Under the pieces are notes generated by a model that was not told the origin of the DNA, did no database searches, and worked only from the letters and a program-made list of their open reading frames with translations. Shown piece after piece: positions 52,363 through 58,352 of a stretch of 58,352 nucleotides of DNA; position 1 is the first letter of the stretch, and the number at the start of each line of letters is the position of its first letter. Position numbers and translations under genes: made by a program. This DNA comes from Phycisphaerae bacterium (lineage in GTDB: Bacteria; Planctomycetota; Phycisphaerae; Sedimentisphaerales; Anaerobacaceae), in the NCBI GenBank assembly GCA_017993835.1, contig JAGOLX010000039.1, forward strand, positions 1-58,352. Reading direction: 5' to 3'.

Positions 52363-52424
52363 GTTGGTAACAGAGATGGGAAATCGAGTCCTTTGGGAAA
52401 AAGGCAGATCGGTCTGGAGTTCCG

Positions 52425-52548
52425 GTGGCCCAGCCACCCCCGGCTGGGGAGGCCCGGAGATCACCCCCGAGGGCGGGGGTGCCACATGTAGCCCAGCCAC
52501 CCCCGGCTGGGGAGGCCCGGAAATCACCCCCGAGGGCGGGGGTGCCAC
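52425..52548. repeat. Tandem REP pair array between the two VWA genes
   Basis: Two nearly identical units of about 61 bp: GTGG (52425) plus CCCAGCC..GGCTGGG, then CACCCCC..GGGGGTG and CCAC (52482-52485); and GTAG (52488) ... CCAC (52545-52548). A GGAGTTCCG module (52416-52424) precedes the array. The same two-unit arrangement occurs inverted at 56291-56400. Confidence 0.85.
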
Positions 52549-52571
52549 AGGCGAGTGTGCGGCGTAGGTTT

Positions 52572-54615: not shown

Positions 54616-56567
54616 TGAAAGACGTTCTGAAATATGTCGTTCTGGCGATGTGTCTCACCCATCCAGCCATGGCGGGCAGTGGGGACAATGTCCGCGTCCG
54701 CGCCGTGGTCAACTCGGAGACCGCCATCTACCCCGGCGACACCTTCCAGTATTCCATCGTCGTCGAGGGGGGCAGCAAGCCGAGCAAGATCGACCTGTCG
54801 CCGTTGAACCCCTTCAATCCTCGTTCCGCCGGCGATGGCTCGTCGTACCACCAATTCCACGACCAGGTCGTGATCAGTCACTCCTTGAATTACGCGATCA
54901 CGGCCAAGGAGGCCGGCACGATGCACCTTCCCGGCGTGACGGTGGTCGTGGGCGGCAAGACCTACACCACCAACGCGGTCGATGTCGCGGTCTCGAAGCC
55001 GGGAACGACGGACCGTATGGCCGTGGAGTTTTCCGTCTCGGAGCGGACGTGCTACGTGGGCCAGCCGATCGTCATGACCGTGCAATGGACCGTCTCGGCC
55101 CGCTGGCAGAACGTCGCGTTCGACGTGCCGGTCTTCAAGTCGGACGCTTTCCTCGTCGAGGAGGTCTCTTCTTCGGGCGGTCCGGCCGGCGGCGAACAAA
55201 CGCTCATCGACGGGGTCCCGACGACCGTCCGTGGCACTCGCCAGCAGGTCAAGGGCGTGGAGGCAGAGGTCTTCGTCTTCAGCAAGGTCCTCATTCCCCA
55301 GCGTGCCGGCCGCCTCGTCCTCGATCCGGTCAGCGTCTCCGCCAATCTCGCGGTCGGTCGGGTCCGGACGAGCGATTTGTTCAATCCGTACACCCTGAAG
55401 TATGAGCGGGCCGCGGTGCAGTCCGCGTCCATCGAGCTGGAGGTGCGGGCGCTGCCGGAGACGGGCAAGCCCGCGGAATTCTATGGGCTGGTCGGGCGGT
55501 ATACGATCAGCGCCTCGGCCACGCCGACGAAGGTCAGCGTGGGCGACCCGATCACCGTGACCATCCGGATCGGGGGCAATCCGTATCTCAAGGCCCTGCA
55601 GTGGCCGCAGCTCGAGCAGGTGCCGGAGCTGGCGGCGAACTTCAAGATCCCGTCCGAGAAGGCCTCGCCGACCATCGAGGCTACGGCGGAGGGCCCCTGC
55701 AAGGTCTTCACTCAGACGCTCCGCGCCAACAGCGAAACCGTCACGCAGGTCCCGCCGATCCCGCTGGCCTATTTTGATTCCCAGCGGGGCGAATACGCCG
55801 TGGTCCGGACCGATCCGATCCCGCTGGAGGTCGCGCCGACGAAGATGCTCACGAACGCAGACCTGGAAGGCGCGGGGTCCGCTCCGGTGAACCGGGAGGT
55901 GGAGGCGATCCGCAAGGGCCTGTCGGCCAACTACTATGGCCCGGAGGTTCTGGTGGATCAGACCTTCTCACTGCCGTCGGCCATGGTCAGTCCCGGATAC
56001 GCCGCGATCTGGGCGATTCCGTTTGCGGGCCTCGTCGCCAGTGCCGCGATCCGTCTGTCCGGCCGGTCCAATCCCGCGTCGCTCACCCGCAGGCGTCATC
56101 GTCGAGCCGCCGGCGTGGCGGTGCAGCAACTGAAGGCCATCGTCTCCGCCGATCCGAAGCAGAGATCCGAACTGCTGCTGACCGCCCTGAAAGGCTATGT
56201 CGGCGACCGCTTCGACCGGGTCGCGGCGTCGCTGACGCCGGAGGATTGCCGACAGGTGATCGCGCAAGCTCTCGACGCGGTGGCACCCCCGTGGCACCCC
56301 CGCCCTCGAGGGTGTCTTTCCCCAGCCGGGGGCGGCTTGGCTACCTGTGGCACCCCCGCCCTCGGGGGTGTCCTTCCCCAGCCGGGGGCGGCTGAGCCAC
56401 CGGAACTCCAGACCGATTCGCCTTCTTCCCTTGCGAACCGGTACGCGGACTTGATCGCCGCCTGCGAGGGCTCGCGGTATTCCCCCCTGGCCTCCGACAT
56501 CGGCGCCGCCCAGGTCCAGGAGGCGACGGAGTTGATCGACGCCATCGAGAGGCGGGTGAAGCAATGA
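54612..56567 (+). CDS. BatD-like oxygen-tolerance protein with in-frame repeat insertion
   Basis: 651 residues. Signal peptide (VVLAMCLTHPAMAG), a long beta-rich outer region (about 20-455; VRAVVNSETAIYPGDTFQYS and later repeats of the same fold), one membrane helix (GYAAIWAIPFAGLVASAAIR, about 462-481) and a cytoplasmic helical tail. This is the BatD architecture. About 50 residues in the tail (about 560-607; starting WHPRPRGCLSPAGGG) are unlike the family and encoded by a tandem REP array. Translation stays in frame and the normal ending resumes (LANRYADLIAACEGSRYSPL). It overlaps the next gene by 4 bp. Confidence 0.9.
   Translation: MMKDVLKYVVLAMCLTHPAMAGSGDNVRVRAVVNSETAIYPGDTFQYSIVVEGGSKPSKIDLSPLNPFNPRSAGDGSSYHQFHDQVVISHSLNYAITAKEAGTMHLPGVTVVVGGKTYTTNAVDVAVSKPGTTDRMAVEFSVSERTCYVGQPIVMTVQWTVSARWQNVAFDVPVFKSDAFLVEEVSSSGGPAGGEQTLIDGVPTTVRGTRQQVKGVEAEVFVFSKVLIPQRAGRLVLDPVSVSANLAVGRVRTSDLFNPYTLKYERAAVQSASIELEVRALPETGKPAEFYGLVGRYTISASATPTKVSVGDPITVTIRIGGNPYLKALQWPQLEQVPELAANFKIPSEKASPTIEATAEGPCKVFTQTLRANSETVTQVPPIPLAYFDSQRGEYAVVRTDPIPLEVAPTKMLTNADLEGAGSAPVNREVEAIRKGLSANYYGPEVLVDQTFSLPSAMVSPGYAAIWAIPFAGLVASAAIRLSGRSNPASLTRRRHRRAAGVAVQQLKAIVSADPKQRSELLLTALKGYVGDRFDRVAASLTPEDCRQVIAQALDAVAPPWHPRPRGCLSPAGGGLATCGTPALGGVLPQPGAAEPPELQTDSPSSLANRYADLIAACEGSRYSPLASDIGAAQVQEATELIDAIERRVKQ
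56291..56430. repeat. Tandem REP pair array inside the batD-like gene, plus GGAG module
   Basis: GTGG (56291) .. CTAC (56341-56344) and GTGG (56347) .. CCAC (56397-56400), the reverse complement of the array at 52425-52548. It is followed by ggaactccagaccgattcgc (56402-56421), the complement of the module preceding the other array. Confidence 0.85.
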
Positions 56568-57586
56568 CGATTCGCAAAACAGCTCTGCTCGTGGCGGCCC
56601 TGGTGCTTGTGGGATTCTGTGACCCGTGGGCGGTGGCCCGTGGTGGATCGGAGAAAGCCAGATCGGGCCTCTATTCTTCAACGAAATCTCTGGGTTCGAT
56701 TTCGTTGACGAATAGACAGGACGAAACCCGCGATGCGCGAGGTTCGGAGTTCCGCCTTCAGGCGGATCAAGACCGCGTAAACGCGGAACTCCGAACGGAT
56801 CTGCCCTTTTCCGATCCTGCCCAGGCGACGCCCATATCCCGCGAGGACTTCCATGCCGTTCTGAACGAAGCCAACGCCGCCTTCCAGCAAGCGAACGCGG
56901 CTCAGGACCCTGACGCTGGACGACAACTTTTCGACAAGGCCATCCTCCTCTATGAGAAGATCATCGACCAGGGCGGCATCCGGAACGCGGGACTCTACTA
57001 CAACCTGGCCAACGCCTATCTCCTCAAGGACGACCTCGGCCGGGCCATTCTGAACTACCGCCGGGCCGAGAGGCTGGATCGCTCCGACCTGAACATCAAG
57101 AAGAACCTGGCGTTCGCGCGGAGCCGTCGGATCGACCGGGTCGAGACGGCCGCCCCCAAACGCGTGCTGGAGACCCTGTTCTTCTGGCACTACGACCTGT
57201 CGCTGCGGACGAGATTCCTGCTGGTCTGCCTGGCCTTTGCGGCGCTGTGCCTGGCGGGCATCGCCATGATCCGGCGGGGTCGAGGGACAGCGAGCACCGC
57301 CGGTGCGGTTCTTTCCGGCGTACTCGTCCTTTCCCTGCTGGCCTCGATCCTCATCGAAACGCACCGCCAGTCGCGTGAGCGGTTCGGCGTCGTCACGACC
57401 GCTGAGGTCGTCGCCCGCCAGGGCGACGGGCCCAACTATCCGCCCAGCTTCAAAGACCCCCTGCACGAGGGCACCGAGTTCGATCTCATCGAGCAGCGTC
57501 CCGGCTGGCTCCACATCCGCCTCGCCGACGGCGCCGACGCCTGGGTCCCCGAAGACGCCGCGGAACTGGGCGGCTCGGAAAGCTGA
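56564..57586 (+). CDS. TPR/SH3-domain membrane protein (BatE-like) with repeat-derived segment
   Basis: 340 residues. Signal peptide (LLVAALVLVGFCDPWAVA), then about 50 residues (36-86) encoded by two palindromic repeats. TPR units follow (about 95-190; GLYYNLANAYLLKDDLGRAI), then two membrane helices (about 210-230 and 240-262) and a C-terminal bacterial SH3 domain (about 275-335; VVARQGDGPNYPPSF then LIEQRPGWLHIRLADG). TPR plus SH3 is the BatE architecture. It is the last gene of the operon; only 4 bp separate its stop from a convergent small gene. Confidence 0.88.
   Translation: MTIRKTALLVAALVLVGFCDPWAVARGGSEKARSGLYSSTKSLGSISLTNRQDETRDARGSEFRLQADQDRVNAELRTDLPFSDPAQATPISREDFHAVLNEANAAFQQANAAQDPDAGRQLFDKAILLYEKIIDQGGIRNAGLYYNLANAYLLKDDLGRAILNYRRAERLDRSDLNIKKNLAFARSRRIDRVETAAPKRVLETLFFWHYDLSLRTRFLLVCLAFAALCLAGIAMIRRGRGTASTAGAVLSGVLVLSLLASILIETHRQSRERFGVVTTAEVVARQGDGPNYPPSFKDPLHEGTEFDLIEQRPGWLHIRLADGADAWVPEDAAELGGSES
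56673..56713. repeat. Inverted repeat 'tcaacgaaatc' inside the batE-like gene
   Basis: ATTCTTCAACGAAATC (56673-56688) and GATTTCGTTGACGAAT (56698-56713) are inverted arms (15 of 16 bases). The same core occurs at 58183-58221. Confidence 0.8.
56742..56796. repeat. GGAG-footed REP pair inside the batE-like gene
   Basis: Perfect 14-bp outer arms GTTCGGAGTTCCGC (56742-56755) and GCGGAACTCCGAAC (56783-56796). Each end is a hairpin with a GGAG foot: GGAGTT CCGCC-ttca-GGCGG and its inverted partner CCGCG-taaa-CGCGG AACTCC. The sequence after it (ggatctgcccttttcc) matches the complement of 52396-52411, linking it to the module near the other arrays. Confidence 0.85.
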
Positions 57587-57590
57587 CCAA

Positions 57591-57851
57591 CTACACGCCG
57601 AAGAAGCGGCACACGCGACGGAACATCCGCCAGTCGTCGCCGCCGAAGCCCCAGCGAGCAGCAAGGGCCTCCTTCTCCATCGGCGCGAGCGTGCACCATC
57701 GCAGGTAGAACGCCCCTTCCGTCCGCACGGTGCGCGCGAAGCCCTCCAGGATCAGGGCGCACTGGCGAGCCAGAGGATCCGTCGAGCGCTTCATCCGTTC
57801 GATCCGTCGGGACGCGGAGCGCCCATCCACAGGTTTACGCAGGGTCGTCAT
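57591..57851 (-). CDS. Small hypothetical protein
   Basis: 86 residues from ATG 57851 (MTTLRKPVDGRSASRRIERM). It overlaps the end of the upstream zinc-ribbon gene by 17 bp, so the two are coupled. Basic, with FYLRWCTLAPMEKEALAARW and a C-terminal DDWRMFRRVCRFFGV. No family was recognised. Small overlapping genes of this kind are frequent in prophage or plasmid-derived segments, but nothing else supports that here. Confidence 0.5.
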   Translation of the reverse strand: MTTLRKPVDGRSASRRIERMKRSTDPLARQCALILEGFARTVRTEGAFYLRWCTLAPMEKEALAARWGFGGDDWRMFRRVCRFFGV

Positions 57852-58065
57852 GAACGAGCACCTCCATAGCCATCCTGGCGTGCAGAGCCTTGCTTCGGCG
57901 ATTGGCCGCTCGTGCCGTGGCGGTCGCGACCCGGAACGACGTCGAGCACAGGCAGCACCGCGCCGATCCGGAGCGCACATAGCACCCGCGCGGGGTCAAG
58001 AGCTGGGCCCCACAGGCGGGACAGACGATGTCACCGAACGCGTTGACGCGCCCGCGCGGTGTCAT
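57835..58065 (-). CDS. Small zinc-ribbon protein
   Basis: 76 residues; GGGAGG lies just upstream of ATG 58065. Two Cys pairs, CPAC (about 15-18) and CCLC (about 37-40), spaced as in a zinc ribbon, then an Arg/Ala-rich tail (RVATATARAANRRSKALHAR). It is a possible nucleic-acid-binding or regulatory protein. It overlaps the next small gene. Confidence 0.6.
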   Translation of the reverse strand: MTPRGRVNAFGDIVCPACGAQLLTPRGCYVRSGSARCCLCSTSFRVATATARAANRRSKALHARMAMEVLVHDDPA

Positions 58066-58105
58066 AGAACCTCCCGGGAGACGGAAAAAGGCGAAACGGG
58101 CCTAC

Positions 58106-58148
58106 TTTGAGGGAGAAAAACCTCTTGGCTCGGTTTTTCCCCCTCAAA
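58106..58148. repeat. 17-bp inverted repeat near the window end
   Basis: TTTGAGGGAGAAAAACC (58106-58122) and GGTTTTTCCCCCTCAAA (58132-58148) pair at 16 of 17 positions. It lies upstream of the zinc-ribbon gene. It could be a repeat unit or a terminator-like hairpin. Confidence 0.6.
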
Positions 58149-58182
58149 CCGTTGTCGCGCGTCGCGAGCCTCGTGGTGTCCG

Positions 58183-58221
58183 TTCCTCAACGAAATCGAA
58201 CCACAAGATTTCGTTGAGGAA
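58183..58221. repeat. Perfect 15-bp inverted repeat 'ttcctcaacgaaatc'
   Basis: TTCCTCAACGAAATC (58183-58197) and its exact complement (58207-58221) enclose a 9-bp loop. It shares the tcaacgaaatc core with 56673-56713 in the batE-like gene. The rest of 58066-58352 contains nothing recognisable. Confidence 0.8.
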
Positions 58222-58352
58222 TATAGAGACTGTAGCAACGTTGCAGAGCATTTCTATCCTGTCTCACGGCGTTGTTGATGGAGAGTGGCGGTGGTTTGAT
58301 AGCGGGCGGGAGCTTGCAGGTCACGCTGCATGTCCAAAGCGATACGGCAACG

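Follow-up and report, generated by a model that had tools for sequence, protein, structure and literature searches.

The window, the whole 58,352-nucleotide stretch analysed here, is contig 15 of a 6.4-Mb genome in 115 contigs. It carries a bat operon in which genes for BatD, a VWA/BatA-type protein and TPR proteins accompany a batE-like gene (56564..57586, forward strand). Based on the open reading frame and Pfam matches to TPR and SH3 domains, the product of this gene runs from a signal peptide through TPR and membrane helices to an SH3-like end, and its orthologues in Phycisphaerae also adjoin batD. Within batE, and in frame with it, lies an element of 167 bp (56648..56814, forward strand) that encodes residues 29-84. 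On this strand it consists of a left terminal inverted repeat (TIR), TCGGAGAAAGCCAGATCGGGCC (56648..56669), which fits a family consensus, TCGGAAAAAGGCAGATCGGGCC; a hairpin arm, H1, of the form CAACGAAATC-N9-GATTTCGTTG (56673..56713); a spacer delimited by alignment with other copies (56714..56741); a second palindrome, B, of the form GTTCGGAGTTCCGC...GCGGAACTCCGAAC (56742..56796); and a right TIR, GGATCTGCCCTTTTCCGA, whose inner end is partly eroded (56797..56814). The original prediction held that two different palindromes form the linker that follows the signal peptide. Both are present where it placed them, and dinucleotide shuffles of the window give an expectation of zero for either. The element extends beyond the proposed span, however: it begins 25 bp upstream and stops 18 bp downstream of the span covered by the two palindromes, and that span encodes residues 37-78 rather than the predicted residues of about 36-86.

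The H1 and B palindromes are two arms of one TIR-bounded element and not adjacent independent insertions, since H1 occurs elsewhere together with conserved outer arms (TCGGAAAAAGGCAGATCGGGCC) and a different second hairpin, H2, followed by the reversed outer arm. We call this family A. Its unit, a bracket of 167 bp with a core of 165 bp, is arranged in the order TIR, H1, spacer, H2 (TTTGAGGGGGAAAAATC...) and TIR, with TIRs of about 22 bp; the ends were set by TIR conservation and by two clean comparisons of empty and filled sites. In batE, palindrome B stands where H2 would stand, and the whole element is thus an A/B hybrid. Its predicted fold (-92.1 kcal/mol, z -7.0) is Y-shaped, a stem bearing two hairpin arms, and a standard A copy likewise folds into a stem with two hairpin arms (-105 kcal/mol, z -10.7).

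Genome-wide, H1 has 23 exact copies, or about 30 if divergence is allowed, and B has 18 exact copies, or about 25; reversed control patterns gave 0 matches. Each repeat is therefore a dispersed family. We found 38 TIR-paired A elements, of which 37 are distinct. Twenty of these 37 are in frame within coding ORFs and about half of the copies lie outside clear genes, fractions that refer to the copies found, in stretches of up to 20 kb fetched around matches in a fragmented metagenome assembly, and not to an unbiased scan. The host genes encode PurQ, glutamine-dependent NAD synthetase, a 2-hydroxyacid dehydrogenase, GH127 and GH2 proteins, an [FeFe]-hydrogenase and a penicillin amidase, as well as PfkB/HAD, FtsK-like, MTHFR-type, URO-D and radical SAM proteins, among others. 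In several hosts the element splits a Pfam domain, including GATase_5 in PurQ, the CN_hydrolase/NAD synthase region and the penicillin amidase domain, and for PurQ and NAD synthetase the alignment to chains of solved structure is interrupted at the element. The peptide usually encoded in the hosts is SEKGRSGLYSSTKSLGSISLKNGSDEALDARPGFEGEKSNQEIFPPQSRPDLPFSD, abbreviated as SEKGRSGLYSSTKSLGSISLKN...RPDLPFSD. Of the 20 in-gene copies, 17 are read in the forward open frame and 3 in reverse (sign test, p = 0.0026). These elements are predicted to be selfish hairpin DNA that is translated as part of about 20 proteins.

Palindrome B behaves differently. None of 23 stand-alone B copies lies in a gene, versus 20 of 37 A elements (Fisher test, p = 4e-6), so B was rejected as an inserter into genes by itself. 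The two in-gene B copies that we found, in batE and in a gene at C34:146115, are each inside an A frame. Regular in-gene insertion is thus limited to family A, and B enters genes only within an A frame. Elsewhere, B mostly forms the middle of a larger unit with TACGCCGTCCA in inverted orientation within its ends (L039-L049 and others), and it also occurs in at least two other frames; it looks like an exchangeable core.

The original prediction also pointed to relatives of the two palindromes elsewhere in the window. The one at 58183-58221 is genuine, being the H1 hairpin of a truncated A element (TIR, H2, H1; 58081..58227, reverse strand) close to the contig end. Two small reverse-strand ORFs (57591-58065), one of them zinc-ribbon-like, adjoin this element, and the arrangement of element and ORFs seems to recur in L025 and L034. 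The two proposed relatives of B, at 52404-52424 and 56401-56430, are likewise genuine, but neither is a complete B palindrome: each consists of a TIR fragment and a short GGAGTTCCGG/CCGGAACTCC stem, which is half of B, adjoining tandem GC-rich REPs. The second of these is part of an in-frame insertion in batD, in the same operon as batE (56289..56432, forward strand), in which two tandem GC-rich REPs, the half-B stem and the TIR fragment add 48 codons; this insertion is absent from more than 20 BatD orthologues, which align without a gap across that point. The first is part of a related composite of TIR fragment, half-B stem and two tandem REPs upstream of the VWA gene (52394..52550, forward strand), which is probably non-coding.

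Other repeats of this genome also occur in coding sequence. A Y1/RAYT transposase gene on C37 (L059:9695-10351) has GC-rich GTAGCCCAGCC... REPs on both flanks and is likely the partner of that REP family, and a radical SAM-like ORF next to it contains GC-rich REPs in frame as well. A further repeat family, GAAGGTCAGAAGGTGAGAAGG... (L029, L019, L034, C53 and C115), encodes a recurring peptide, GEKVGES...VRPSDLLNFSPSS, within several proteins, among them NAD synthetase, where it lies in a linker.

Comparison with related genomes provides empty counterparts of the filled sites. At least one empty orthologous site was found for 17 host genes, 16 of them by queries made of the joined flanks and the remaining one being batE. 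In the 8 other genomes of the genus, the joined flanks of the 16 hosts mostly align continuously with orthologues. At base level, the net insert is 165 bp with a target duplication of 0 at the GH127 (L018) and hydrogenase (L024) sites, and there are three extra bases at L031. Some sites are also filled in sister species (a PdxB-like gene and batE in G005, and GH127 in G004), but the positions of A elements are mostly not common to different species. Matches occur in 10 of 198 related genomes: seven are among the nine of the window's genus, and the rest are short matches in the same family. A divergent A subfamily, found in G007, G002 and G004, retains the two hairpins (their arms compensated) but not the spacer; its copies are not in clear genes. 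Exact TIR matches among viral contigs numbered 0. The dispersal of both families, gene positions that differ by genome and the empty orthologous sites bear out the earlier proposal that the linker is built from mobile repeats.

The pairing of the arms is closely maintained. In the 39 genus copies compared, standard pairs fill 96.7% of pairing cells, and both sides have changed in 31 of 57 pairs, with both arms co-varying. Doubly changed cells number 143, versus 34 in shuffles and at most 23 if the partner is slid, and private changes common to the two TIRs of a copy number 37, versus a permuted mean of 13. Among 27 full-length A copies, the two flanks remain complementary for several bases past the TIRs, into the host sequence: positions 1-3 are complementary in 19/27, 16/27 and 18/27 copies, versus fractions of 0.32, 0.44 and 0.55 between copies, and several of positions 4-12 show raised complementarity too. 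Such covariation would follow from selection on the fold as the element moves or from arm-to-arm conversion (quasipalindrome correction), and insertion at pre-existing palindromes is a possible third source. The strength of the covariation raises the question of whether structure or arm conversion keeps the palindrome.

The history of the batE linker itself can be partly read from its orthologues. In distant BatE proteins, the signal peptide leads directly into the domain and the linker is absent; a conserved linker encoded by non-palindromic DNA, which would have spoken against the original prediction, was not found. The batE gene of UBA2218, whose sequence is the same as that of G005, has a full A element with H1 and H2 at the same place (SGLYSSSKSLISTCLKN...SRPDLPFSDP). 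In two other members of the genus, G001 (L118) and G004 (L124), the BatE linker holds unrelated low-complexity repeats of the GACGAGCGACGAGGGACG type, so the linker is a tolerant, or perhaps hot, site. Two histories are then evenly balanced in our view: an A insertion in batE that was ancestral to both species and whose H2 was later swapped for B, or independent insertions into the tolerant linker. A shared insertion would account for the same place and the same right-hand junction (PFSD-P) in both species, and a swap of H2 for B has a parallel in the second A/B hybrid, at C34:146115, where B has the same place inside the element. On the other hand, the elements in the two sister-species batE genes share only 76% identity over 100 bp, and other copies match each of them more closely (up to 85-89%), so that they may be separate insertions, and a site that also received unrelated repeats in two other genus members could have been entered twice. 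For the hybrid, either B replaced H2 in place or a ready-made A/B hybrid copy landed in batE.

Very probably, then, the linker of BatE is a member of a family of short, mobile, non-autonomous palindromic elements whose in-frame copies have been left by purifying selection. The length of the A core is a multiple of three, and the core has an open frame on each strand, so that it could enter a surface loop or linker and thereby add about 55 residues to a protein that would often still work. Insertions that broke the frame would be lost, and purifying selection would thus leave an in-frame set of copies, nearly all in the single open forward frame. We infer that the host proteins still function and that A insertions fall in surface loops, and we treat the order of events in batE in the same way. 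The element would be moved in trans, presumably by an enzyme that works on folded single strands. As a more tentative extension, which we would not favour at present, coding palindromes may be modular: TIR frames of fixed, codon-multiple length would serve as landing pads, with arms that could be swapped for other mobile palindromes while the frame stays intact. If this is true, B, unable to enter genes alone, reaches proteins in this way, and linkers can be gained by arm exchange.

One candidate for the enzyme, compatible with the mobile-element explanation, would make family A REPIN-like and moved by a Y1 HUH RAYT transposase of the genome. The two hairpins in inverted arrangement and the absence of target duplication at the two cleanest sites fit this idea, and the genome does have Y1_Tnp genes, one of which has another REP family at its flanks. 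However, the long TIRs and the size of 165 bp are unlike REPs, and A copies adjoin none of the RAYT genes. No transposase linked to family A was found, the Y1 (RAYT) genes being without an adjoining A or B element, and in the genome-wide list of TIR pairs, drawn from a fragmented assembly, no pair clearly encloses a transposase. The neighbourhood test gave no support to a RAYT as the mover, and we consider the REPIN-like reading rather unlikely.

Two further explanations rival this account. The element could be a functional RNA, either a bidirectional terminator or an mRNA hairpin for expression control, with its position in reading frames being incidental. Such a role is improbable. The strong folds of the batE element and the standard copy, the A-tract and T-tract ends, the covarying arms and the fact that about half of the copies are not in clear genes would all suit it, but 20 copies are deep in ORFs with domains on either side, where a terminator would truncate the mRNA, and positions mostly differ between species. 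Moreover, Rfam has no family above the gathering cut-off for the element, with chance matches below the threshold only. It could instead be argued that the linker is a native, selected part of BatE whose palindromy arose by chance or codon bias, because it follows a signal peptide, a position at which low-complexity linkers are common. However, the same DNA and peptide are found in about 20 unrelated proteins, distant BatE proteins do without the segment, and shuffles predict no palindromes. The empty sites and the occurrence in multiple proteins refute this explanation, to which we attach practically no probability.

Several known systems resemble family A in part. By description, the closest known kind appears to be the Rickettsia palindromic elements (RPEs; Ogata et al. 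2000, 2002), which are several families of palindromes, each about 150 bp long, that lie in frame within many unrelated genes and encode a conserved peptide, with a mobility mechanism that is not established (PMC10969869). In-frame coding palindromes have been described mainly from Rickettsia. Family A resembles this kind as a dispersed palindrome that is in frame in many unrelated genes, and orthologues without the insert exist. Unlike RPEs as so described, family A has a host in Planctomycetota/Phycisphaerae, two hairpins enclosed by clear, long TIRs, and some copies that are hybrids, with one arm from another palindrome family. Family A, which was found only in the window's genus and as traces in its family, appears to be a genus-restricted family in Phycisphaerae that is separate from RPEs. 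We found no earlier report of palindromes or in-frame insertions of this kind in Phycisphaerae in the literature that we searched.

Intragenic GTAG/CGTC REPs, for example in Opitutus terrae, are hairpin repeats in genes of a bacterium of the PVC superphylum (PMC3733652). The GC-rich GTAG-type repeats of the window fit this type, and they also border a RAYT gene in another part of the genome, whereas family A, at 165 bp with TIRs, differs from REPs of 20-40 bp. The enterobacterial RU/ERIC elements are non-autonomous MITEs of 127-168 bp with open reading frames and in-frame fusions (PMC2759123). Family A is MITE-like in that it is short and has TIRs and no transposase gene inside, but a target-site duplication is absent at L018 and L024, and L031 has the three extra bases. 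Furthermore, RU/ERIC elements are mainly intergenic, with few in genes, whereas about half of the A copies that we found lie in genes, and empty sites provide many controls. Pneumococcal BOX elements are modular short repeats with exchangeable parts, in which the modules are in tandem and intergenic. Family A also has exchangeable parts, but here an arm is exchanged inside a TIR frame within coding DNA.

Rickettsia are obligate intracellular bacteria with reduced genomes, for which relaxed selection is an easy explanation of coding palindromes. Family A, by contrast, belongs to a planctomycete with a 6.4-Mb genome, where it has entered core enzymes, PurQ and NAD synthetase among them, while sister species keep the sites empty. 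This shows that coding palindromes are recurrent and not tied to genome decay, and the natural pairs of filled and empty genes allow a direct test of whether such inserts are neutral.
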